The notes below the pieces were generated by a model. That model saw nothing but the letters and a program-made list of their open reading frames with translations, made no database searches and was not told the DNA's origin. The position numbers and the translations under genes are program-made. 64,000 nt of DNA from Acuticoccus sediminis (GTDB lineage: Bacteria; Pseudomonadota; Alphaproteobacteria; Rhizobiales; Amorphaceae), in contig NZ_QHHQ01000004.1 of NCBI RefSeq assembly GCF_003258595.1, positions 434,001 to 498,000 of the forward strand. Direction: 5' to 3'. Below, in pieces: positions 39,343 through 52,148 of the stretch. Positions within the stretch are counted from its first letter, which is position 1. Each line of letters opens with the position of its first letter.

Positions 39343-40434
39343 ATGAAGAGACGGGAATTCTTGGCCGGCGCCGCCGGCATCACCGCCGCCGCCGGAACCC
39401 TCGCCGCGCCGCACATCGCGAAGGCACAGTCGAGCTTCTCCTGGAAGATGACCAACGCCTACGGGCCGGGCTCGCCGTATTATGTGGAAGGTCCCGGCAG
39501 CCCGACGGACTTCTGCAAGAAGGTCGCCGCCCTCTCCGAGGGGCGCCTGCAGATTCAGCACTTCGCCGCCGGGGAACTGATCCCGGCGCTGGAAGGCTTC
39601 GACGCGGTGCAGAACGGCGTCGTCGAGATGAACGCGGCGAATGCCTACTTCTGGGCCGGCAAGATCCCCGCGGCCCAATATTTCACCACCGTGCCGTTCG
39701 GGATGGACGTGAAGGGCACCAACGCGTGGATGTACAACGGCGACGGCATCAAGCTGTGGCACGAGATGTACGAGCCGCTCGGCCTCATCGCCTTCCCGAT
39801 GGGCAACACCGGCGTGCAGATGACGGGCTGGTTCCGCAAGGAGATCAACTCGGTCGCCGACTTCGACGGCCTGAAGATGCGCATCCCCGGCCTCGCCGGT
39901 AAGGTCTACGCCAAGCTCGGCGTCAACGTGCAGCTGCTGCCGGGCGGCGAGATCTTCCCCGCGCTCGAGCGCGGCGTGATCGACGCGGCGGAGTTCGTCG
40001 GCCCCTACCAGGACCGCCGTCTCGGCCTGCAGAAGGCGGCGAAGTACTACTACACCACCGGCTGGCACGAGCCGAACAACGTCACCGAGCTGCTCATCAA
40101 CAAGGCGGCCTGGGACTCGCTGCCGGAGGACCTGCAGAACATCGTCACCAGCGTCGCCGCCGATTGCAACCTCATCAGCAACGCCTGGTGCGACGCCACC
40201 AATGCCGAGGCGATGGTCGACCTCGTCACCAACTTCGGCACCATCGCGCAGCCGTTGCCGGCCGAGGTCGTCGCCGAGCTGAAGACGATCACCGAGCAGA
40301 CGCTGGAGGAAGGCGCCGCCGCCGATCCGCAGACGCGCAAGGTCCACGACAACTACTTCGCCTTCAAGGAGCAGTACGGCGCGTGGGCGAAGCAGTCGCT
40401 GGAGCCGCTCCTGCCGCTCCTCTACAACTCCTGA
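39343..40434 (+). CDS. dctP: TRAP transporter substrate-binding protein (DctP/TakP-like)
   Basis: A 363-residue periplasmic binding protein with a Tat-type signal ('MKRREFLAGAAGITAAAGTL', cleavage near 'AKAQSS'). The carboxylate-clamp Arg lies in 'DFDGLKMRIPGLAGKVY', and 'LLPGGEIFPALERGVIDAAE' and 'EFVGPYQDRRLGLQKAAKY' resemble the subgroup that binds 2-oxo acids or lactate (TakP type), often with Ca2+. The ligand is inferred at class level only. An AGGAG ribosome site precedes ATG 39343. It is first in a complete DctP-Q-M operon. Confidence 0.93.
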   Translation: MKRREFLAGAAGITAAAGTLAAPHIAKAQSSFSWKMTNAYGPGSPYYVEGPGSPTDFCKKVAALSEGRLQIQHFAAGELIPALEGFDAVQNGVVEMNAANAYFWAGKIPAAQYFTTVPFGMDVKGTNAWMYNGDGIKLWHEMYEPLGLIAFPMGNTGVQMTGWFRKEINSVADFDGLKMRIPGLAGKVYAKLGVNVQLLPGGEIFPALERGVIDAAEFVGPYQDRRLGLQKAAKYYYTTGWHEPNNVTELLINKAAWDSLPEDLQNIVTSVAADCNLISNAWCDATNAEAMVDLVTNFGTIAQPLPAEVVAELKTITEQTLEEGAAADPQTRKVHDNYFAFKEQYGAWAKQSLEPLLPLLYNS

Positions 40435-40447
40435 GCGCCCGCCTCTC

Positions 40448-40972
40448 TTGAGTGCTCTCATCAAAATCGCGGACGGGGCCGATCGCCTCGTCCGCATCGT
40501 CGGCGAGATCGTGGCGTGGAGCGGCCTCGTCATGGTCCTGCTCATCGCCTTCAACGTGATCGCCCGCTACTTCTTCTCCTACGGGCTGGTGGCGCTGCAG
40601 GAGCTCGAATGGCACCTGATGGCGGTGGGGGCGCTGTTCGGCATCTGCTACGCGCTCAACCGGCGGGAGGAGGTGCGGGTCGACGTCCTCTACGCGCGCT
40701 TTCCGCCGCGCGTGCAGCGTGCGATCGACATCCTCGGCAGCCTCCTCCTCGGCCTCATCGCGCTCAAGATCGCGTGGCTGTCGATCGGCTTCGTGACGCG
40801 GAGCTACGCGCTCGGCGAGGGGTCGGCCGACCCGGGCGGCCTCCCCGCCCGCTATGTGCTGAAGGCCGCGATCCCGGCCGCCTTCGTGCTCCTCGCCGTC
40901 CAGGCCTTCGCCCGCGTAGTGCACGACACCGCGACCCTCGCCGCCCGCCGCACCGACCCGACCGGACACTGA
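40448..40972 (+). CDS. dctQ: TRAP transporter small permease (DctQ-like)
   Basis: A 174-residue membrane protein with four helices. 'WSGLVMVLLIAFNVIARYF' and 'LVALQELEWHLMAVGALFGI' are the standard DctQ pattern with the conserved Glu-Trp. It starts with a TTG at 40448, 13 bases after the binding-protein stop, with no better in-frame ATG before the first helix. The large permease gene starts three bases after its stop. Confidence 0.92.
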   Translation: MSALIKIADGADRLVRIVGEIVAWSGLVMVLLIAFNVIARYFFSYGLVALQELEWHLMAVGALFGICYALNRREEVRVDVLYARFPPRVQRAIDILGSLLLGLIALKIAWLSIGFVTRSYALGEGSADPGGLPARYVLKAAIPAAFVLLAVQAFARVVHDTATLAARRTDPTGH

Positions 40973-40975
40973 CCC

Positions 40976-42301
<1,326 letters not shown>

Positions 42302-42346: not shown

Positions 42347-43513
42347 CTACCGGTCGGGGGCGGACCGCGCCCGTCCCGGCCGCCACCCGAACCAGCCACG
42401 CAGGCGGTAGAGAACAATGATGTTCCAGACGTGGCGGAGCTGGGCGGACAGGCTGTCGTGCTTGCGCGCCAGCAGGAGCCCCTCGGCCGCCCGCGCCGGG
42501 AAACGCAGACGCCTGCCCTGCCGCGCCAGTCGCCCGACGGCGACGCGGGCAATCCTGGTCGCCGTCGCGTCGCCCTCCGCCAGCACGGTGGCCGCGGCGC
42601 ATCGGGGGAGCAGGGAAAGCTCCTCGGCGACGAGGAGGCCGATGCGCAGCGTGCGCTCCGTCCCCCGCGCCCGGGACAGCACGAACGCCTCGCGCAGTGC
42701 CTCATCGCCGGCGGTGCGGACGGCGACGCTGAAGTCGAGGATCTTCTTCAGCGACACCCAGGAGTCCTTGGATAGCTCCGCCGCCCAGAACACGATCGCA
42801 TGCGGCGGGCTGAAGACGCGCACGGTTCCGCCGTCGAGGGCGACCGGGACGGCGTGCTCGCGCGCGGCCTCGAGGTCGAAGGTGATCCCGTGCCACGGCG
42901 CGGCGATGTCCCAGTGGATCTCGACCGCGAGCCCCTCCCCGCCGGCCCAGACGGTGAAGTGGTGGAGCCGCGCCAGCGTTTGCCACGGTTCGCGGGTGGC
43001 GCTCTCGGGGACCTCGTAGTCCGCAGGCAGCGCGGCGATGGCGGCGGAGAAGTCCGCGGCGCGGATGTAGACGTCGAGGTCCTTCACGGTGCGCGGCGCC
43101 CCGGGGCTGCGGTAGAGCGCGTCCGAGACGGCGCCCTTCGCGAAGGCCGCGTCGATCCCGGCGGCGGCGAAGGCGGCCGCGAGGCGGACGGTCTCGCGCC
43201 TCACCCTGTCGCGTTGCTCGACGATCCGGCCGACGAAGTGCTGCATCGCGGCGGCGAGATCCTCGGGCAGGTCCAGCCCGTCGCGAAGGCAGCGCGCGGC
43301 GACCTCGCCGACCACCTCGTGGTGGAGGGCAAAGCGGGCCATCGCCTCGAGGTCGACGCCGCCCGCGAGGACGCTGCCGGCCGCTCCCGCGTCGCCCGCG
43401 AGGCAATGGAGGACGAAGCGCTCCGCCGGCTCGAACTGCATCAGGCCGCTCGCCGTGACGGAGTCCCGGTGACGAGCGTCCCGGTCGATGGGGACGGTCA
43501 GGACGCTGCTCAT
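42347..43513 (-). CDS. Nucleotidyltransferase-like protein (NTP_transf_5 type) of the kinase/PqqD cassette
   Basis: A 388-residue protein whose central region has the layout of the uncharacterised nucleotidyltransferase family: Lys126 in 'GIDAAFAKGAVSDALY', then 'RTVKDLDVYIRAADF' with Asp145/Asp147 as the metal-binding DxD, and 'VEIHWDIAAPWHG' as the third strand motif (the HWD Asp). The C-terminus is helical and basic. Members of this family occur beside HprK-like kinases and PqqD-like or lasso-peptide proteins, with unproven chemistry. Its ATG overlaps the kinase stop (ATGA), so the two products are probably made in fixed ratio and may act on the same substrate. Confidence 0.78.
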   Translation of the reverse strand: MSSVLTVPIDRDARHRDSVTASGLMQFEPAERFVLHCLAGDAGAAGSVLAGGVDLEAMARFALHHEVVGEVAARCLRDGLDLPEDLAAAMQHFVGRIVEQRDRVRRETVRLAAAFAAAGIDAAFAKGAVSDALYRSPGAPRTVKDLDVYIRAADFSAAIAALPADYEVPESATREPWQTLARLHHFTVWAGGEGLAVEIHWDIAAPWHGITFDLEAAREHAVPVALDGGTVRVFSPPHAIVFWAAELSKDSWVSLKKILDFSVAVRTAGDEALREAFVLSRARGTERTLRIGLLVAEELSLLPRCAAATVLAEGDATATRIARVAVGRLARQGRRLRFPARAAEGLLLARKHDSLSAQLRHVWNIIVLYRLRGWFGWRPGRARSAPDR

Positions 43514-44709
43514 CGGCCGGCCTCGTCCGTCGCCGTGGGAAACAGGCCCCGGAAGACGGCGACGGCGTCCTCGCTCGCGCCGTAGCGCAGGCGGTAGCAG
43601 GGCGTCGCCTCGATGAAGCCGATCAACCCGTCGACCACGCTCGCGGTGAGCCGGGCCCGCCAGGCGAGGATGCTGGCGAGGAACTCGCCGAGTGCCTCCT
43701 CCGGCAGGAGACGGGTGAGCTCCGCTCCCGCCCCCGCCTCGAACGTCGGGAAGATGATGGCGCGCACCGGCTCGGGCGCCGAGTCCACGCGGGCGACGGA
43801 CAGGTACTTGATGACCTTGCCGTCGATCCGCCGGTGGACCGGCAGGGTCTCCAGCGCCGGGTGGATGGCCGTCATCGCCTCCCATGCCGCCGCCTTCACG
43901 CAAGTCGCCGCCGGCACCCCCTGCACCGTGGGCCCGTCGAGGCGGAAGAGCGCGAGATCGTCGGACAGGCAGTCCCAGCCTGCGCCGGCGAGCGTCAGGG
44001 CGAGGCACGACTTGCCGCTGCCGCTGCCGGCCGGGAGCAGCACCCCCCTGCCGCCGACGCTGACCACGGCGGCGTGCACGCAGGCGTCGAAATCGGTCCG
44101 GTTGATGGCCGCGTGGGTGAGCGCGGCCTTCACCTGCGACGCGACTTCCGCGATCTCCCCGCATTGCTCGGCGACCTCGCCGTCGACGAGGACACGGTAG
44201 CCGTCCGCGTCCTCGACGACCCGCGCCTCGACGCCGGCGCCGTCGGCCTGGCATTCCAGGTGGCCCATGGCGGAGAGGAAGCTCTCACGAAGTTTTGATG
44301 ACGGAAATGTAACGTCGAAGACGGTGCCCAGCAGGCCGACGCGAACGGGCGCGACCGGCGACGGCTCCCGGTCCGGCGCGGCGACGGCCCGCGCGGGATC
44401 CGGGCGCGGGGAATGGGCCGCAGGTTCGGGCGCGCCGGCCTCGACGAGACGGTCGAGCGAGGCGAGGATGCCGTCGACCGTCTGCCGGGCCTCGTCGCGC
44501 GAGACACCGAAATCGTCGGCGAACACGCGGACGATATCGTCCTCACCCAGCCCATCGTCGAGACAGCACCACAAGAATGCCGACTGGGCGTCGAGGGCGA
44601 AGACGGCTTCCCGGGCCGGGTCGAGCAGAAGAGCCGAACCTCCGATTGGGTGGAGCGTCAAGCATCGCTTCTGGTTTACTTCCCTAAAGTATGGCATTCC
44701 CTGATACAT
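43510..44709 (-). CDS. PqqD-like domain fused to HprK-like kinase
   Basis: A 399-residue two-domain protein. Residues ~15-95 match the PqqD/peptide-chaperone pattern ('GGSALLLDPAREAVFALDAQ', 'FGVSRDEARQTVDGILASL'), the type of domain that binds leader peptides of ribosomal peptides. After a Pro-rich linker, residues ~120-399 look like an HPr-kinase-like domain with P-loop 'LLPAGSGSGKSCLALTLAG' (~224-242) and Asp pair 'CLSDDLALFRL'. In other genomes the PqqD and kinase parts are often separate genes. The start is uncertain: ATG 44709, ATG 44697 or TTG 44721. The upstream region is shared with a divergent Tat-signal repeat protein, which is the obvious candidate substrate. Confidence 0.82.
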   Translation of the reverse strand: MYQGMPYFREVNQKRCLTLHPIGGSALLLDPAREAVFALDAQSAFLWCCLDDGLGEDDIVRVFADDFGVSRDEARQTVDGILASLDRLVEAGAPEPAAHSPRPDPARAVAAPDREPSPVAPVRVGLLGTVFDVTFPSSKLRESFLSAMGHLECQADGAGVEARVVEDADGYRVLVDGEVAEQCGEIAEVASQVKAALTHAAINRTDFDACVHAAVVSVGGRGVLLPAGSGSGKSCLALTLAGAGWDCLSDDLALFRLDGPTVQGVPAATCVKAAAWEAMTAIHPALETLPVHRRIDGKVIKYLSVARVDSAPEPVRAIIFPTFEAGAGAELTRLLPEEALGEFLASILAWRARLTASVVDGLIGFIEATPCYRLRYGASEDAVAVFRGLFPTATDEAGR

Positions 44710-44712
44710 TGC

Positions 44713-44741
44713 TTGACACAAAGCGCTCTTATTAATAACTA
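44713..44741 (+). promoter_or_regulatory. Candidate promoter for the repeat-peptide gene
   Basis: A perfect TTGACA (44713-44718) is followed after 17 bases by TAACTA, a poor -10. The segment 44713-44760 is clearly AT-richer than the surroundings (ATTAATAACTAACC), and it is the only control region between the divergent kinase and peptide genes. The -35 is convincing; the -10 is not. Confidence 0.35.
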
Positions 44742-44787
44742 ACCAGTAGCAAGCGCATTTGAGCCTTGCAAGCAGGGTGGCACCTTA

Positions 44788-45033
44788 ATGTCAAATGACA
44801 GCTGTGATCTTTCAAGGCGTAAATTTTTCCGCGACGCCTCGCATGTCGGCGCAGGCGCAGCAACAGTTTTATTGTTTTCGGCGACGACGGTTCCCAAGGC
44901 TCTCGCCGGCCACTACGGCCACTCGGGCGGTCCCCGTCCGGGTCACGGGACTCCTCCCGGCCATGGTGGCACCCCTCCTGGCCATGGCGGTACTCCGCCC
45001 GGCCACGGCGGCACCCCTCCGGGGCGGCATTAA
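44788..45033 (+). CDS. Small Tat-signal protein with C-terminal GTPPGHG repeats; candidate modified peptide
   Basis: An 81-residue protein. The N-terminal ~40 residues are a Tat signal ('DLSRRKFFRDASHVGAG', then 'AATVLLFSATTVPKALA'), so the mature part would be about 41 residues: 'GHYGHSGGPRPGH' and four tandem heptads of the GTPPGHG type, the last ending GRH. The mature part contains only Gly, His, Pro, Thr, Arg, Ser and Tyr. The AGGGTGG ribosome site lies seven bases before ATG 44788, and a strong terminator follows. It is divergent from the PqqD-kinase/nucleotidyltransferase pair. His-rich repeats could bind metal; Thr residues could be phosphorylation targets. No homologue is recognised. 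The overlapping +2 frame lacks any export or repeat logic. Confidence 0.78.
   Translation: MSNDSCDLSRRKFFRDASHVGAGAATVLLFSATTVPKALAGHYGHSGGPRPGHGTPPGHGGTPPGHGGTPPGHGGTPPGRH
44947..45030 (+). repeat. Four tandem 21-base coding repeats (GTPPGHG)
   Basis: Units at 44947-44967, 44968-44988, 44989-45009 and 45010-45030. The units differ mostly at synonymous positions (for example ACT/ACC for Thr and CCT/CCC/CCG for Pro). This shows selection on the peptide sequence rather than very recent DNA slippage. The last unit changes to GTPPGRH before the stop. Confidence 0.9.
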
Positions 45034-45146
45034 CCGCACCGGCTGAGGCGCTTCCCCCTCCGTTGGAGCGGGAGACGTGCTCAGGCCTGACCGCCGAACG
45101 ATACAAACAAAGCTGTGTTTGACGACTGACGATTGAACAGGTTTTT

Positions 45147-45194
45147 GGCGGGGCGATCCGGCACTCAGCTGCCGTGATCGACCCGCCTTCTTTA
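45147..45194 (+). terminator. Rho-independent terminator after the repeat-peptide gene
   Basis: Arms GGCGGG-G-CGATC-C-GGCA and TGCC-GT-GATCG-A-CCCGCC (45147-45187) form about 15 base pairs with one mismatch, a small bulge and a six-base loop. TTCTTTA follows on the plus strand. On the minus strand the stem is followed by A residues, so it serves the plus-strand peptide gene only. Confidence 0.7.
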
Positions 45195-45292
45195 TGTCGT
45201 CCGGCGAAATTCAAATCCGCTCCAAGATCCTCGGAGCGTTCCTCGCGCCACATCCATCGCCCGGTCGAACCGGGCGAGCTGACCTGGACCGG

Positions 45293-45724
45293 CTACAGCC
45301 CGGCGGCGGCCCGGGCGATCTCGTCGAGGAGGGCTTCAACCTCCTTCATCGGACCGTCGGGCATCAGCCTGTAGCCGATGGCAACGGTGGAATCGGTGTC
45401 GGTCACGAAGACACCGTAGGGGCAGAAGGCGATGTTGGCGGGATCGACCTCCATCATCTTGCGCGACAGAACGGCCGAGCAGAACAGGAAGACGTCAGCG
45501 TTGTCGAAGAGATCCTTTGCGCCGCCGACATCGTCCTTCGTCCGACTTAGCATCGCGCCGACGTGGCTGACGTAGTCGACCACGAGGCCGTGCCCGATGA
45601 TCTCGTTCTCGATTGCAAAGGTCGCATCCTCGAACGAGCCGTCGAAGGTGTACATCTTGACGCCCTCGGCCGACGCCACAGCCGGTATGGCGGCGATGAA
45701 CATCGACGCAAGCCACCGTTTCAT
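45293..45724 (-). CDS. DUF302-domain periplasmic protein at the end of the sox operon
   Basis: A 143-residue protein with a Sec signal ('MKRWLASMFIAAIPAVASA'), followed by a DUF302 domain ('VKMYTFDGSFEDATFAIENE', 'GHGLVVDYVSHVGAMLSRTK', 'VDPANIAFCPYGVFVTDT'). DUF302 function is unknown; members are often linked to sulfur-oxidising or redox loci. The start is ATG 45724, with GGAGGG seven bases upstream. The soxD stop lies 30 bases upstream and there is no terminator between, so it is probably the last gene of the soxV-D transcript. Two Cys residues (in 'FLFCSAV' and 'IAFCPYG') are possible functional sites. Confidence 0.82.
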   Translation of the reverse strand: MKRWLASMFIAAIPAVASAEGVKMYTFDGSFEDATFAIENEIIGHGLVVDYVSHVGAMLSRTKDDVGGAKDLFDNADVFLFCSAVLSRKMMEVDPANIAFCPYGVFVTDTDSTVAIGYRLMPDGPMKEVEALLDEIARAAAGL

Positions 45725-45754
45725 CCCGTTGCCCTCCAATTTTCCACTGCCGGC

Positions 45755-46846
45755 CTACTCGACTGCGCCCGCGCCGAGGCCGTCATCCTCGACGCTGCCG
45801 GGCGTCACGTCGAGGATGCGAGCGCGCATTACGACCCGGGCCGTGCCGGGGATGCAGTCCTGCATGCACGGCTCGCCGGTGGAGTGATACTGCGGCTCCT
45901 CCGGCCGCGTGTCGTCGATGAAGTTGTCCTCGTTCGGAAGCCGGATTTCGGTAAAGTTTTCTTTCGAGAGGACGAAGTCTTCTTCGGTGACGACATCATT
46001 CATATAAAGAAGATACGCTGTGAGCGCATAGACGTCATCGTCGGATAGAGAATGGGCATTGCCGTACGGCATCGCCCTGCGGATGTAATCGTAAACCGTC
46101 GACAGGTACGGCCAGTAGGAGCCGATGGTCTTTTCCGGGCGGTCGTCGGTCAGCGTGTCCTGTCCGCCGGCGAGGACCGGCCAGCGATCGACGCCCTCGG
46201 CGAAGACGCCGTGGCAGACGGCGCACTGCTCCTGAAACAGCGCATCGCCGTCGCTGACGCTACCGGACCCCTCCGGAAGTCCCGCCCCGTCGGGACGGAC
46301 GTCGACGTCCCAGGCAGCGATCTCGTTGGCGGTTGCCGCGCGGCCGAGCCTATAGACGCCGCCCACGCGAGTTTGTGTGACTACCCCGGACCGAGGCGCC
46401 GCGGCCGGGGTCACCGCGGGGGTGGCACCGTCGGACGTTGCACTCGCGTCCTGGTCGCCCGCCCCGTTGCCGCCCGTCTCCGAGTACGACGCGAGGTAGC
46501 CGATCACAGCGCTAACGTCCGCGTCCTGCTTCAGGCCGGCGAAGGCCATCTTCGTGCCGGGGACGATCTGGCGCGGGTTGCGCAAGAAGGTTTCGAGCGC
46601 TTCTGGGGTCCAGACGACTCCTTCCCCGCCCTTCTCCGCCATTGCCGGGGAGTACTTGAAGCCCTCGACCCCGCCGGCCGGGCGTCCAACCACGCCGTTG
46701 AGGTGCGGGCCGATCTTATTCGCCGCTCCGTCCCCGACCGCGTGGCAGGCGGTGCACATCCGGAAGGCGCGCGGCATGTCCTGCGCCAGCGACGGCGTCA
46801 CCGCAAGGACCAGAGCGGCGGAGAGAACGCTAGGAAATTTCGACAT
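45755..46846 (-). CDS. soxD: Sulfur dehydrogenase dihaem cytochrome c SoxD
   Basis: A 363-residue periplasmic dihaem cytochrome, the electron-accepting subunit of Sox(CD)2, which oxidises the SoxY-bound sulfane sulfur. The Sec signal ('VLSAALVLAVTPSLA') is followed by haem sites Cys31-His35 ('CTACH') and Cys207-His211 ('CAVCH'). The N-terminal domain is mitochondrial-cytochrome-like ('GPHLNGVVGRPAG', 'PGTKMAFAGLK'), and an Ala/Thr/Pro linker (~125-155) separates the halves. A C-terminal 'EPCMQDC' pair is also present. ATG 46846 overlaps the soxC end by 17 bases. Confidence 0.94.
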   Translation of the reverse strand: MSKFPSVLSAALVLAVTPSLAQDMPRAFRMCTACHAVGDGAANKIGPHLNGVVGRPAGGVEGFKYSPAMAEKGGEGVVWTPEALETFLRNPRQIVPGTKMAFAGLKQDADVSAVIGYLASYSETGGNGAGDQDASATSDGATPAVTPAAAPRSGVVTQTRVGGVYRLGRAATANEIAAWDVDVRPDGAGLPEGSGSVSDGDALFQEQCAVCHGVFAEGVDRWPVLAGGQDTLTDDRPEKTIGSYWPYLSTVYDYIRRAMPYGNAHSLSDDDVYALTAYLLYMNDVVTEEDFVLSKENFTEIRLPNEDNFIDDTRPEEPQYHSTGEPCMQDCIPGTARVVMRARILDVTPGSVEDDGLGAGAVE

Positions 46847-48086
46847 TTTCTGCGCTTCCGTCGGACTTGATGTGCCAGGTCTGGATGCCGTTGTTGTGGT
46901 AGATCGAGTTGTCGCCCCGTGCGGCGCGCAGCACGTCCTTGGTCGGCTGCACCACGCCCGCCTCGTCCATCGCCCGCGATTGGAGGAAGAGCTCCGAGCC
47001 ATCCCAGTCGATGTCGAGGTAGAATCGGTGGAGCGCCTTGGACAGGCTCGGCCCGTCGATCCGCGCCGAACGCCAATTGCGGCCGCCGTCGATGGAGACG
47101 TCGACGCGCGTCACACGGCCGTTGCCGGACCATGCAATGCCGGAGATCACCATCGGGCCCGGACCGTGTCCGACGGGCTTTTGCGGCGACGGGCTGGTAA
47201 TGACGGACTTGACGTCCATCACCCAGGTAAACCGGCGCGCTTTGCCGTTGGTGAGAAGGTCGGTGTACTTGCTCGTCTCCTCGCGTTGCTGCCAGGGTTT
47301 GTCCCCGACCTCCAGCCGGCGCAACCACTTGACCCACATGTTGCCTTCCCAGCCCGGGACTACGAGGCGGAGCGGGTAGCCCTGTTCCGGACGGAGCGCC
47401 TCGCCATTCATTCTGAAGGCGACGAGACAGTCGTCCATCGCCTTCTCGAGCGGGACGGAGCGGGTCATGAGGGAGGCGTCGGCGCCTTCGGGCAGCACCC
47501 AGGCAGCGGACGACCTGAGGCCCGCCTCCTCCAGCAGCGTCGAGAGCTTTACGCCAGTGTACATCACGCAGTGGAGCATACCGTGCGTATACTGGCAGCC
47601 GTTGAGCTGGGCACCGCGCCACTCCATGCCGGAGTTCGCCGCGCATTCCAGAAAGTAGATCCGGTTCTCGCGCGGGAAGCGCATCAGGTCGGCCATCGTG
47701 AAGACGAGCGGCGTCTCGACGAGGCCGTTGATCATCAGCCGGTGCTCGGCCGGGTCGATCTCGGCAACGCCCGCGTGATGGCGTTCAAAGCACAGACCGT
47801 TCGGCGTGATGATGCCGTCCAGCTCGTGGATCGGGGTGAAGTTGACCGAGCTTTCGGTCGATGCGGTGAGCCACGCGACGTCGCGGCGGACGACGTGGCT
47901 CTCGTATGGTGAGGGCACTCCGTAGGGCGCCGCCTCGACGCCGGGGCCGAGATACTGGTTCCAGGGCTTGACCTCGAGGATCGCCGGATCGCCCTCCGCA
48001 GCGGAAGCCCGCCCGGCCAGCGCCGCACCGCCGAGAGCCACGCCGGCGGTCAGGAGCTTGCGGCGATCGATGCCGTTCTCACTCAT
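46830..48086 (-). CDS. soxC: Sulfane dehydrogenase molybdopterin subunit SoxC
   Basis: A 418-residue sulfite-oxidase-family molybdoenzyme, the catalytic subunit of Sox(CD)2. A Tat signal ('DRRKLLTAGVALGGAALAG') fits export after cofactor insertion. The molybdenum-ligand Cys148 lies in 'IYFLECAANSGMEWRG'. 'GYPLRLVVPGWEGNMWVKWL' and 'ISGIAWSGNGRVTRVDVSID' are the usual SoxC motifs of the cofactor and dimerisation domains. ATG 48086 has a GGGAG site. Presence of soxCD means thiosulfate can be oxidised fully to sulfate without sulfur globules. Confidence 0.96.
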   Translation of the reverse strand: MSENGIDRRKLLTAGVALGGAALAGRASAAEGDPAILEVKPWNQYLGPGVEAAPYGVPSPYESHVVRRDVAWLTASTESSVNFTPIHELDGIITPNGLCFERHHAGVAEIDPAEHRLMINGLVETPLVFTMADLMRFPRENRIYFLECAANSGMEWRGAQLNGCQYTHGMLHCVMYTGVKLSTLLEEAGLRSSAAWVLPEGADASLMTRSVPLEKAMDDCLVAFRMNGEALRPEQGYPLRLVVPGWEGNMWVKWLRRLEVGDKPWQQREETSKYTDLLTNGKARRFTWVMDVKSVITSPSPQKPVGHGPGPMVISGIAWSGNGRVTRVDVSIDGGRNWRSARIDGPSLSKALHRFYLDIDWDGSELFLQSRAMDEAGVVQPTKDVLRAARGDNSIYHNNGIQTWHIKSDGSAENVEIS

Positions 48087-48105
48087 CTCAACACTCCCTG
48101 GCCAT

Positions 48106-49791
48106 TCACATCTTCACCGCGACGGTCTCCGCCGCTGCGGTCACGACGGGGTGGTCGGCGAAGTACGCTTCCATGACGTCCCAGATCGGCGGCCCTTCGG
48201 TGCCCTCGTTCACCGAGGCCCATCCGGCGACGATGTACTCGCGTTCCGGGTCCACCGGCTCGCCTGAGACCATGGTCATGGCACCGATGCGCGCGCCCAT
48301 CCCGGCGTTCGGGTCGACCGCGTAGGACATCCCGCCGACGCGCACCATGTCGCCACCCTGCTGGTAGTACGGGTCCGGGTTCAGGATGTTGTCGGCGACA
48401 TCTTCCATGATCGCCTTCAACTGCGCCCCGGTCATCGGAACGCGGTAGGCGGCCGGATAGGTCATCGCGACGCCGTTGTGCAGGTCCTCGACGGTGATCG
48501 TCTGACCCGGCAGGAGCGTCGTGCCCCAGCGGAAGCCTGGGGACAGCGAGATTTCCGCGTCGCGCTGCTCAAGCAGGGCACGGCAGATCACGTCGTCGAG
48601 CGTGCCGTTGAAATTACCGCGGCGGTAGAGGAGATCATCCGCCGTCGCGAGCTCGCGAGCGAGCTCGTCCCTGTAGGGAGCGCGCAGCTCGTCGATGAGC
48701 GCGGCCATGTCGGCATCCGGGGTGATGACGTCGGCGAAGACCGGAATGAGACGGTAGGCGTAGTTCTTCACCTCGCCACCGGACACGTCGAGATCGAGGC
48801 GGGAGACGAACTTGCCGTTCGATCCGGACGCGACGAGAAGCGTGCGACCGACCTTGACGGGTTCCGGCAGCGCATCGTGCGTGTGACCGGTGAGGATGAC
48901 GTCGATCCCCTCGACCCGGGAGGCGAGCTTGCGGTCGACGTCGAAGCCGTTGTGCGAGAGGAGGACGACGAGTTCGGCCCCGTCCGCCCTCGCCTCCTCA
49001 ACGTGCCTCGCGATCTCCTCCTCGCGGATCCCGAAGGACCAGTTCGGGATCATCCATCGGGGGTTGGCGATCGGTGTGTAGGGGAAGGCCTGACCGATGA
49101 CGGCGACCTTCACGCCGCCCTTCTCGAAGGTGCGGACCGCCTCGAAGGCCGGCTCGTCCCACTCCGCGTCGAAGATGTTGGCGCCGAGGAAGGGGAACGG
49201 TAGCCCGTCGATCACCTCCTGCACGCGGTCCATCCCGTAGGTGAACTCCCAGTGGCCGGTCATCGCATCCGGTTGGAGCGCGTTCATGACGTCGACCATG
49301 TCCTGGCCGAGCGTCTGGTTGGCCGTATAGGAGCCCTGCCAGGTGTCGCCACCGTCGAGCAGGAGCATGTTGTCGCCGCGCTCGGCGCGAATGCGCTTCA
49401 CAACGGTCGCCACTCGGTCCATGCCACCCATGCTTCCATAGGTCCTGGCGAGGGCCGCGAAGTCCTCCGAGGTCAGCGCATAGGCGTCCGGGCTACCGGG
49501 AGCGATACCGTAAAGCTCGAGGAAATCGGCGCCGGTGACGTGTGGTGGCTGACCGGCGGCTGCACCAACGCCGATGTTGACGGACGGCTCGCGGAAATAG
49601 ATCGGCTTCAACTGGGCGTGAATGTCGGTGACATGGACGAGTGTGACGTTCCCGGTCGACGCCATATCGAGGAGATGGTCCTCGGTGAGCTGCTGCTGGG
49701 CGAACGCCGGCGTCCAGCGACCCGCCATGCCGAGGCCCAGGATGGCGCTGGTCGCGGTCGCAGCGGACAGGAAGTCGCGCCGTGTTATCAT
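48106..49791 (-). CDS. soxB: Thiosulfohydrolase SoxB
   Basis: A 561-residue 5'-nucleotidase-family dimanganese enzyme that hydrolyses the terminal sulfonate from SoxY-bound intermediates, releasing sulfate. A Tat signal ('MITRRDFLSAATATSAILGL') precedes the metal motifs 'HVTDIHAQLKP' (Asp56, His58) and 'LLLDGGDTWQGS' (Asp146), plus 'MTGHWEFTYGMDRV' and 'VVLLSHNGFDVDR' and 'DVILTGHTHDA'. GHW in place of the usual 5'-nucleotidase GNHE is the SoxB hallmark. The start is ATG 49791. A 144-base gap upstream separates it from soxA. Confidence 0.97.
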   Translation of the reverse strand: MITRRDFLSAATATSAILGLGMAGRWTPAFAQQQLTEDHLLDMASTGNVTLVHVTDIHAQLKPIYFREPSVNIGVGAAAGQPPHVTGADFLELYGIAPGSPDAYALTSEDFAALARTYGSMGGMDRVATVVKRIRAERGDNMLLLDGGDTWQGSYTANQTLGQDMVDVMNALQPDAMTGHWEFTYGMDRVQEVIDGLPFPFLGANIFDAEWDEPAFEAVRTFEKGGVKVAVIGQAFPYTPIANPRWMIPNWSFGIREEEIARHVEEARADGAELVVLLSHNGFDVDRKLASRVEGIDVILTGHTHDALPEPVKVGRTLLVASGSNGKFVSRLDLDVSGGEVKNYAYRLIPVFADVITPDADMAALIDELRAPYRDELARELATADDLLYRRGNFNGTLDDVICRALLEQRDAEISLSPGFRWGTTLLPGQTITVEDLHNGVAMTYPAAYRVPMTGAQLKAIMEDVADNILNPDPYYQQGGDMVRVGGMSYAVDPNAGMGARIGAMTMVSGEPVDPEREYIVAGWASVNEGTEGPPIWDVMEAYFADHPVVTAAAETVAVKM

Positions 49792-49935
49792 CGTCGTCCT
49801 CGCTCGGGAGCCGGGCACACCGCTCCCGTGGGCACGCGCCGCCGGGCGCGCTCCGGTTGAGATTTCGGCGCCGTCATGGCCGGCACCCTCGGCGTCGGGG
49901 ACAGCGGGCGGCGATGCGCCGTCCGCCTCGTCGCG

Positions 49936-50796
49936 TTACTGGCGGACCGCAGGCGTCTCGACCGACAGTCCCTCGCCGCGCCATGTCGTGTAGACCTCGA
50001 GCGCCATCAGGTCGTCGGAGAACGCCGCGGGGAATTCGGCCCGCGTATCGCGGATGCAGCCGCGGAAGCGGTTGTGCAGGGAGACCATGTCGGCCTGCTT
50101 CAGGCGGTAGGTCGGAAAGCCGTTGACGTTGCCCTGGCTAAGGTGGTCGGCGCGGATATACTGGCCGTTGTGGTCCTCGTGGCAGGTCGCACAGGCGAGA
50201 TTGAGCTGGCCGGTGCGCGTGTAATACCGCTCCTTGCCGCGCTCCCACCAAGCCTGCATGTCCCCCGCCCCGAGGTCGATCTCGATCGGGGTTCCGAGTG
50301 ACTGGTGCTTGATGAACGTCGTCAGCGCCTTCTGGTCGGGCGCGTCAAACTTGTACGGTTCGGCGCCCATGTTGTTCTCGCGGCAGGCGTTGATCTGCAG
50401 CTCGATGTTGAAGGGCTTGCCGGCCGCCTCGTTCCACTTCGGATAGTGCGCGCCGACGTCTTTCATCGACTCGCTCGCGTCGCCGTGACAGGCGGCGCAG
50501 GACTTTCCGGCCGTCCCCTCCACCCGATTCCAGACGTCCTCGCCGGCCTCAACGTAGAGCATGCCCGGATTGTCGAACGTGTCGGCTTCCAGAGCCCGCG
50601 TCTCGTCGGTCCGGTAGAGCCAGCCAGACAGAACCTCTTCGAAGGGATGGCCCTCCGGCGCCTTCGCGCGGGTCGTGATCTCGATCTCGCCGTCGATGAC
50701 GAGCGCGTCGTCGACCGGTTCCGACTGCGCCACGCTGACCGCCAGGGCGACCGTCAGCGCGGAGGCCGAGAGGAGTGCGATGCTGATGCCTTTCAA
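49936..50796 (-). CDS. soxA: SoxAX cytochrome complex subunit A
   Basis: A 286-residue periplasmic c-type cytochrome that, with SoxX, links thiosulfate to SoxY. A Sec signal (~25 residues) is followed by two haem sites, Cys100-His104 ('SCAACHG') and Cys202-His206 ('CATCHED'), so this is the dihaem form. Cys247 in 'NRFRGCIRDTR' is the cysteine-persulfide ligand of the active-site haem. 'RADHLSQGNVNGFPTYRLKQ' is a typical SoxA segment. Confidence 0.96.
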   Translation of the reverse strand: MKGISIALLSASALTVALAVSVAQSEPVDDALVIDGEIEITTRAKAPEGHPFEEVLSGWLYRTDETRALEADTFDNPGMLYVEAGEDVWNRVEGTAGKSCAACHGDASESMKDVGAHYPKWNEAAGKPFNIELQINACRENNMGAEPYKFDAPDQKALTTFIKHQSLGTPIEIDLGAGDMQAWWERGKERYYTRTGQLNLACATCHEDHNGQYIRADHLSQGNVNGFPTYRLKQADMVSLHNRFRGCIRDTRAEFPAAFSDDLMALEVYTTWRGEGLSVETPAVRQ

Positions 50797-50843
50797 GGTC
50801 GTTCCTCCGGTTGGCCCACGGGTTCTGTCGCCCTCTGGTGCCG

Positions 50844-51170
50844 TCAGCTCACCGTGATCGTCTCTTCGGTGTCGTAGACACTGCCGTCGTCATCGATCCA
50901 TTCGAAACGGAAGGTGCCGTTCTCGGTCACCTTGGCGTTGAACTCGAAGTACGGGTTCGCGGCGATCGCGGGCTCGATGTCGCAGGAGAACACCTCCGCT
51001 CCGTTGAAGGTGCAGGTGAACTTGTTGATGATCTTGCGAGGGATCGCTTTGCCCTCTTTATCCTTTCGCTGGCCGGACTCCATCTCGTGGCTGATCAGCG
51101 TCTTGATCTCGATGATGTCGCCGGCCGAAGCTTTCTTTGGTACTTTGACGCGGGGCTTTGGGGTCGCCAT
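50844..51170 (-). CDS. soxZ: Thiosulfate oxidation carrier complex protein SoxZ
   Basis: A 108-residue SoxZ without signal peptide; it is exported as a complex with Tat-routed SoxY. Typical SoxZ content: 'PRVKVPKKASAGDIIEIKTL', 'ISHEMESGQRKDKEGKAIPR' and 'TFRFEWIDDDGSVYDTEE'. The immunoglobulin-like fold presents the SoxY C-terminal arm to SoxAX, SoxB and SoxCD. It starts 21 bases after the soxY stop. Confidence 0.97.
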   Translation of the reverse strand: MATPKPRVKVPKKASAGDIIEIKTLISHEMESGQRKDKEGKAIPRKIINKFTCTFNGAEVFSCDIEPAIAANPYFEFNAKVTENGTFRFEWIDDDGSVYDTEETITVS

Positions 51171-51191
51171 GTGAGCCTCTCAATCTCTCGA

Positions 51192-51647
51192 TCAGCCGCC
51201 GCAGCCGCCGATGGTGACCTTCACTTCTTTCTTGTCCATGTAGACGGAACCGTCGCTCATCCGGGCGACCGCGATTACGTTCTGCGTCTCGGCAAGGCGG
51301 ATGCGGGTCGTCGCCACCGCCACGCCGGACATCGGCGTGAAGTGCAGCGTCGCCACCTCGGGGTTGGGGTTGCCCTCCGCGAGGATCGTGACCGACTGGA
51401 CGTAGTCCGCGTCCGTCATCGGGCTGTCGACGTTGACGCTAATCGGCACGGTATTGCCGTTTTCGGCGATCTCCGGCGCGGTCAGCGTGATGCGGCCGGT
51501 CTGCGGCTCGGTTCCGCCGGTGAAGGCCATGACGGCCTCCCCGGCCGCCGCGGGTGTCGCGCCAGCGGGGGCGAGTCGCCCGCCCACCAGGGACAAAACC
51601 GCAGCGCCGGCAGACAGCGAGAGTAAATTTCGCCGCGAAACCTGCAT
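51192..51647 (-). CDS. soxY: Thiosulfate oxidation carrier protein SoxY
   Basis: A 151-residue periplasmic sulfur carrier. It has a Tat signal ('MQVSRRNLLSLSAGAAVLSL') and the diagnostic flexible C-terminus GGCGG, with Cys149 as the residue that carries thiosulfate-derived sulfur. It is followed by soxZ and starts two bases after the soxX stop, so soxXYZ are tightly coupled. Confidence 0.97.
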   Translation of the reverse strand: MQVSRRNLLSLSAGAAVLSLVGGRLAPAGATPAAAGEAVMAFTGGTEPQTGRITLTAPEIAENGNTVPISVNVDSPMTDADYVQSVTILAEGNPNPEVATLHFTPMSGVAVATTRIRLAETQNVIAVARMSDGSVYMDKKEVKVTIGGCGG

Positions 51648-51649
51648 GA

Positions 51650-52108
51650 CTACTCCTGTGTCAGCGTCTGGAGATAGGCGACGACGTCTTCGACCTCTTG
51701 CGCGGTCAGGATCGTCTGTCCTCGAAACTCTTCAGCGACGTCGATACCGACGTCGAGAGTGTAGAAGCCCGGCATGATCGTCTGGTCGCCGAAGACATGC
51801 TTGGCGTTGACGACGATAGCCCGCAGCATCGGCGCTTCGTAGCGCGTCGCGACACCGTCGAGAGCTGGTCCGACGTCGCCCTGGAACAGGTGGTCCGACG
51901 CGTCCGAGACCTGGTGACAGGCCAGGCAGTTGCCGAGCTTGCGATCGACCATCACCAGCTTGCCGCTCGCCGCGTCGCCCGGCGCGTCCGTGAGCGAGGC
52001 GACCGTCATATCCACGAACGACACGTCGTCCGGCTTCACGGTTTCAGCGCCTGCCGCCGTGGCGACGGCGAACAGAAGCATTGCCGCCGCGGACGTCCCT
52101 TTGCGCAT
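51650..52108 (-). CDS. soxX: SoxAX cytochrome complex subunit X
   Basis: A 152-residue periplasmic monohaem cytochrome c with a Sec signal ('GTSAAAMLLFAVATAAGA') and haem motif Cys61-His65 ('NCLACHQ'). The distal Met probably lies in 'QTIMPGFYT', and 'AQEVEDVVAYLQTL' closes the fold. ATG 52108 is chosen because GGGAGG lies eight bases upstream; a GTG nine bases earlier overlaps that site. A separate promoter with a possible SoxR operator lies between soxW and soxX. Confidence 0.95.
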   Translation of the reverse strand: MRKGTSAAAMLLFAVATAAGAETVKPDDVSFVDMTVASLTDAPGDAASGKLVMVDRKLGNCLACHQVSDASDHLFQGDVGPALDGVATRYEAPMLRAIVVNAKHVFGDQTIMPGFYTLDVGIDVAEEFRGQTILTAQEVEDVVAYLQTLTQE

Positions 52109-52148
52109 GGTGCGCACCTCCCGTTGGCTGGCCCTCTGCGTGGCCTCT

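Follow-up and report, generated by a model that had tools for sequence, protein, structure and literature searches.

The 64,000-nucleotide stretch analysed here (the window: Acuticoccus sediminis, contig NZ_QHHQ01000004.1, positions 434,001 to 498,000 of the forward strand; coordinates below count from its first letter) carries three adjoining genes, named here K, N and T, which we consider quite likely to constitute a peptide-modification cassette: a serine of the short peptide T would be the acceptor, N would act on the phosphate, and the product would be exported by the twin-arginine translocation (Tat) pathway. The features concerned are the following, RRE standing for the recognition element of ribosomally synthesized and post-translationally modified peptides (RiPPs).

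43510..44721, minus strand: K, a fusion of a PqqD-like RRE domain with an HprK-like P-loop kinase (Pfam, AlphaFold model; start codon unsure)
42347..43513, minus strand: N, a PF14907 (NTP_transf_5) protein of the nucleotidyltransferase fold (Pfam, fold)
44788..45033, plus strand: T, an 81-residue Tat-type short peptide, the proposed substrate of K and N
44788..44907, plus strand: predicted Tat signal or leader of T, residues 1-40 (RR at 10-11, ALA at 38-40; read from the sequence)
44923..44925, plus strand: Ser46 of T (GHSGG), the phospho-acceptor proposed from the serine of the peptide family
44950..45030, plus strand: C-terminal repeats of T, TPPGHGG three times and then a degenerate TPPGRH
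44722..44787, no strand: divergent gap between K and T (by position)

The active sites of K and N are largely intact. A preliminary description of this stretch had presented K as a PqqD-like domain fused to an HprK-like kinase, and both parts were recognized: residues 31-90 match PqqD (PF05402, 33.6 bits, cut-off 23.4), and the kinase part of the AlphaFold model (pLDDT 89) finds PEPCK and HprK/P-HPr (1kkl/1kkm) in the PDB. PqqD is known to bind a leader peptide. At the sequence level, K gives weak matches to HprK and TbiB1 among solved structures and scores 23.1 bits against Hpr_kinase_C, under the cut-off of 33.3; the pointer to the HPr-rel-A grouping was apt, although K, with 76.8 bits against TIGR04352 (HprK_rel_A), stays under the curated cut-off of 200. 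H216, G236, K237, D254, D255 and K276, which are invariant across nine fusions, are all kept in K, which forms a long branch with at most 33% identity to any row of the tree. A pattern scan of genome contigs with K alone matched 65 stretches and confirmed 0 relatives.

N had been described as a coupled DxD nucleotidyltransferase, and rightly so: the K stop and the N start overlap in ATGA, N matches PF14907 with 103 bits (cut-off 31.2), and its model (pLDDT 75) has the nucleotidyltransferase fold. Across 90 aligned rows, one of them the window's own, D145 and D147 (the DxD) are present in all 90, K126 in 89, and G127 and R141 in 88; the N of the window carries all five. A sequence comparison of N with solved structures gave no match at E 1.

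T consists, in this order, of SRRKFF, a hydrophobic stretch, ALA, GHYGHSGGPRPGHG and the repeats. Its score against the Tat model TIGR01409 is 13.8 bits (cut-off 16.7), SRRKFF and the AxA site being present by reading. The length of 81 residues and the Tat-type reading were thus as first described, whereas the four heptads reduce to three full units, exact TPPGHGG repeats, followed by TPPGRH, a degenerate fourth. The full units differ at third codon positions only (12 codon differences over three pairwise comparisons, distributed 0, 0 and 12 over positions 1, 2 and 3), so that T is very probably a genuine protein on which selection acts. The predicted mature peptide is a 41-mer of 3826.78 Da (monoisotopic, unmodified), whose sole serine, Ser46, lies at mature position +6. 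Searches for relatives of T in 60 other genomes returned weak low-complexity matches only (E 6e-4 or above); nine of these loci were inspected through filtered open reading frames (ORFs), and seven had ORFs, none of them T-like and Tat-type, while two had none.

Do genes like K and N recur beside short Tat-type peptides? Loci were gathered by searches with K, the peptides being disregarded, and a fixed rule was applied that asked for a short Tat-type ORF no more than 700 nt away from K or N. Among the 34 full-length fusions in the fetched loci (window included; the fetched loci are a subset of the matches, for instance 5 of 29 plasmid records and 20 class-scan stretches), 22 had such an ORF (21 of 33 without the window), whereas beside other long genes from these loci the frequency was 6/109 (Fisher p 2.6e-12). 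Counting by eye gives 24/34, with L021, L072, L268 and L271 added and L022 and L079 removed; several of the loci without a peptide by this count (L022, L074, L075, L079, L272 and L275) are located on short contigs or close to contig ends. The canonical leader profile finds a peptide in 15 of the 34, and two of three further fusions outside this set (L295, L297 and L299) have a nearby Tat-type ORF under a looser criterion.

The same tendency was seen with PqqD-less pairs of the HPr-rel-A type: 8/23 had Tat-type neighbours versus 2/38 controls, or 11/23 versus 0/27 in another setting. Note that these kinases match the K profile in the kinase part only, and that L303 alone was scored against TIGR04352 (369 bits). 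Of 339 genomes sampled across the phylum, 61 have a K-profile match (E 1e-25), usually confined to the kinase part, and the fetched loci mostly pair the kinase with a PF14907-type protein. At L298, L302, L303 and L305, HPr-rel-A-type pairs adjoin Tat-type proteins of 170-188 residues whose leaders are related and which carry a Cys-Trp motif close to the C terminus. Neither the L302 and L303 proteins nor the HPr-rel-A-type neighbours scanned (8 and 7) had a Pfam or NCBIfam match at E 0.01.

We also proceeded in the opposite direction, from the peptide leader. When the GTDB collection was searched with an alignment of 11 peptides, 194 relatives came up and the 80 best were retained; the counts in this paragraph refer to these 80 until the class sample is reached. 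K was present in the fetched flanks of 45/80 loci and N in those of 44/80; the nearer of the two lies at most 300 nt from the peptide in 40 of the 45, and the divergent peptide-K layout of the window is found in 11 of the 45. At 34 of 79 loci neither gene is nearby. These 34 remaining readable loci belong to 29 genomes, 27 of which have K elsewhere (E 1e-25); under an identical profile and limit, the background in the window's order is 23/317 genomes (another profile gave 22/397 genomes and is not alike, so 23/317 is the background used). In the class sample, a strong peptide match (E below 1e-8) was found in 8 of 385 genomes, and six of these eight are among the 62/385 with a K-profile match (E 1e-12). 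In one genome (G043) K is present and three peptides are encoded elsewhere. These counts show that the peptides occur mainly where K occurs, and that one K-N pair can have several peptides, some of them distant. Peptide-bearing species include Sinorhizobium meliloti, Rhodopseudomonas palustris and Bradyrhizobium. One further locus, L127 (G138 contig C61, 42000-60000), has tandem Cys-rich Tat-type peptides with a related leader; K lies on a different contig of that genome.

Seven Tat-rule peptides beside K have a common leader with invariant RR, G, FA, T, P, L, two Ala and Ser; in the larger set a serine follows the AxA site in 61 of 64 distinct leader blocks, and 76 of 79 peptides (from the best 80 of 194) have it at predicted mature position +2. 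The 76 distinct tails (median mature length 34) are varied and rich in Gly, Ser, Asn and Pro. The GTPPGHG repeats of T are not conserved, and since the tails at other loci are unrelated, repeats are in general neither the recognition nor the acceptor element. Ten family peptides gave only below-cut-off matches in Pfam and NCBIfam (best PF02738, E 8.5e-4, at L070). In Bradyrhizobium (L229, L230, L237, L238 and L246), family peptides have very His-rich tails, e.g. HEHHEHHHHHHHDRD, a composition suggesting that some members bind metal.

Loci without the canonical leader often carry a different short Tat-type peptide beside K, with YxxP in its hydrophobic part at L024, L036 and L277; most discrete lasso-type RREs bind a [Y/W]xxPx[L/V/I/A/F/Y] motif (PMC13381572). 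L277 (7733-8367, plus strand) has three tandem Tat-type mini-peptides upstream of K, which stop at or just past the AxA site and have almost no mature part.

How does T fit into this family? It is a short Tat-type ORF adjacent to K, and it occupies, in divergent layout, the position of a family peptide. Of 183 candidates in the window's genome, 150 were scored and none proved to be a canonical-leader peptide (best E 0.17), which leaves T as the sole candidate observed. Membership of T in the leader family by sequence (RRxFLxxCGKFAxxTPP) was considered and rejected, T having failed with both the canonical and the mixed profile; lacking the family leader, T is assigned by position and design.

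Several observations weigh against the cassette as proposed. On the side of T, the canonical profile gives it E 3.1, with 12 other ORFs of the window ranking higher, and a mixed profile that includes non-canonical leaders places it at a generic Tat level, 24 of 62 scored controls reaching its score or more. Its serine is at mature +6 and not at the +2 of the family. Position 246 of N is Glu in the window and His in 82/90 rows. Since T lacks a clear relative and K sits on a long branch, no close relative tests the K-N-T trio. On the side of the family, 12 of the 34 fusion loci fail the fixed rule, and two of the 22 positives (L022 and L079) look like chance by eye. The true contrast is somewhat smaller than 22/34 versus 6/109, because two genes were tested per locus and only one in the control, which can inflate the ratio up to twofold, and because some of the 34 loci are closely related to one another. 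GxFA and TPP are invariant in the larger peptide set by construction, the search pattern and filter demanding GxFA..TPP. Two of the 29 genomes lack a K match (one of them, G181, has N with a partial K in the other sample), the 80 peptide loci, as the best of 194, are rich in rhizobia, and profile A6 includes K proteins from rhizobia, a bias towards rhizobial genomes that affects both samples.

Taken with these points, the family-level tie between the enzyme pair and short Tat-type peptides is strong, and the link of K and N to T itself, which rests on position and design, is likely. The peptide-enzyme link first proposed from the three genes of the window thus finds support at family level (22/34 versus 6/109 starting from K, 27/29 versus 23/317 starting from the leader), as does the expectation that a peptide would stand beside homologous pairs, with a Tat-type peptide at most loci and none under the rule at 12; it does not extend to a shared leader in T.

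By analogy with characterized systems, the K/N pair probably modifies a short exported peptide with phosphate and one more group. HprK-like peptide kinases have been assayed: PsmK and PadeK phosphorylate the C-terminal Ser of lasso peptides (PMC9266682, PMC8498205), and LppK acts on Ser3 of the LPP core, the S3A, S3T and S3Y variants not being phosphorylated (PMC13381572). PsmN is reported to add hexoses to the phosphorylated lasso peptide (PMC9266682, PMC8498205), nucleotidylation followed by a host glycosyltransferase being left as a possible alternative (PMC9266682). In the cassette, the PqqD domain of K would bind the N-terminal part of T, the Tat signal doubling as a RiPP-type leader. The kinase domain would then phosphorylate a serine near what becomes the N terminus of the mature form; in T this would most probably be Ser46, given the conserved family serine and the tested HprK-like kinases. 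To this phosphate N may add a sugar, as PsmN is reported to do, or else a nucleotidyl or phospho-sugar group. After export by Tat and cleavage behind the AxA site by signal peptidase, the product would be a small modified peptide, rich in Gly, Pro and His, located in the periplasm or envelope.

The role of N is open to another explanation, which we regard as unlikely: only K would act on T, and N would nucleotidylate or inhibit K or another protein, as a toxin-like or regulatory enzyme. Indeed, N finds the toxin MenT1 as its closest fold in the PDB, followed by the antibiotic nucleotidyltransferases ANT(2'')-Ia and LnuA and, weakly, by FKRP, and in the LPP system no effect of deleting lppN was visible (PMC13381572). 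Against this, N accompanies K and the peptide (at 44 of the best 80 peptide loci), and the addition of hexoses to a phosphorylated lasso peptide by PsmN, noted above, is related in two reviews.

The identity of the substrate can be questioned as well, and here the surroundings of the cassette have to be considered:

45147..45187, plus strand: terminator-like hairpin between T and the sox side (folding energy)
45293-52117, minus strand: Sox-type sulfur-oxidation cluster (Pfam)
39343-42301, plus strand: TRAP-type transporter genes (DctM by Pfam; DctP and DctQ by reading only)

T might be an unrelated Tat protein that is there by chance, for instance a partner of the adjoining sox genes, with the true substrate elsewhere or too diverged. 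T indeed lacks the family leader, and a peptide can be far from K (three are in G043, and both genes are missing from the vicinity at 34 of 79 peptide loci). But the 150 candidates scored from the window's genome included no canonical peptide, other genes seldom have a short Tat-type ORF beside them (6/109), and the divergence of T from K is the layout of 11 of 45 family loci. Moreover, the sox cluster (cytochrome c, molybdopterin oxidoreductase, a 5'-nucleotidase-type SoxB-like protein, SoxA, SoxZ, SoxY and cytochrome c by Pfam) lies beyond the hairpin and runs towards T; because T and the sox genes converge, T is outside the sox operon. We therefore hold a chance neighbour to be distinctly improbable.

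The gap between K and T (66 bp, counted from the listed TTG start of K) has an AT content of 53%, versus 30% for the whole window, and is the shared AT-rich gap seen earlier; a simple promoter scan of 44600-45300 gave no sigma-70-type site. T was also credited with a ribosome site and a terminator of its own. The latter is a strong hairpin near 45147-45187 with a T-rich run behind it (folding energy of the 66 nt from 45135 to 45200: -31.6 kcal/mol, z -3.84), which does not figure in the output of a simple terminator scan, whereas the former, AGGGTGG, is weak by eye. On the far sides, the TRAP genes end just short of N, with DctM and N convergent, and a small DUF302-like protein (Pfam score just under the cut-off) adjoins the sox cluster; seven other genomes of the genus gave no match to it, the one hit in eight being the window's own.

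Finally, the preliminary description had placed the modification on a Thr or His of the GTPPGHG repeats; residues 55-81 of T do hold four Thr and four His, compared with one Ser in the mature part, but this acceptor is very unlikely and is not favoured, given that Thr is missing from 47 of the 76 distinct family tails and His from 23, but Ser from none, that Ser stands at mature +2 in nearly all peptides, and that the S3T variant was no substrate of LppK.

Returning to the cassette, with Ser46 as the acceptor and N acting on the phosphate, we lean slightly towards its being part of a broad class of exported modified peptides in Proteobacteria in which the Tat signal would serve as recognition leader, an HprK-like kinase (PqqD-fused or of the HPr-rel-A type) would phosphorylate, in the cytoplasm, a Ser beside the signal-peptidase site, the PF14907 protein would cap the phosphate and Tat would export the product; a single enzyme pair would serve several precursors whose tails are unrelated, some of them encoded far away, and T would be a diverged member. 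Poorly understood pairs of the K/N type would thereby gain a likely and testable substrate class, with a common leader, a conserved Ser and cultured species to work in. The cassette adjoins sulfur-oxidation genes, and related sets recur in many relatives. If the proposal is true, a signal peptide doubling as RRE leader, combined with Tat export, would to our knowledge be a new route for RiPP-like products.

The closest known counterpart is the LPP system of Bacillota (PMC13381572), which likewise combines an HprK-like kinase, an NTP transferase and an RRE, and whose precursors, like those of the family described here, are short, with a conserved N terminus and variable tails. Its modified Ser (S3) lies just past the cleavage site and resembles the family Ser by the predicted signal-peptidase site. 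It differs in having a separate RRE, which in the window is the PqqD domain within the kinase protein, and a dedicated SpI-like peptidase and MsbA-like exporter, neither of which was found among the 12 window proteins scanned with Pfam. The LPP leader, given as YxxPxVLxHQxIxFETxxS, is absent from T, whose leader looks Tat-like. The lasso peptides paeninodin and pseudomycoidin (PMC9266682, PMC8498205) have an HprK-like kinase acting on Ser, as proposed here, and in PsmN a nucleotidyltransferase homologue; no lasso cyclase or B2 leader peptidase was seen among the same 12 proteins, no dedicated search having been made. HPr-rel-A kinases are, like K, HprK-related, next to a PF14907 protein and accompanied by Tat-type neighbours; against TIGR04352 the L303 example scores 369 bits, whereas K, which is PqqD-fused, scores 76.8. 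The PqqD of pyrroloquinoline quinone biosynthesis belongs to the same domain family as that of K, the copy in K being fused to a kinase. Neither the combination of a PqqD-kinase fusion, PF14907 and Tat-type precursors nor the terms HPr-rel-A, TIGR04352 and PF14907 were found in the literature searched, most subscription journals lying outside it. The enzymes are of known kinds, and their combination is a variant of phosphate-modified RiPP-like systems.

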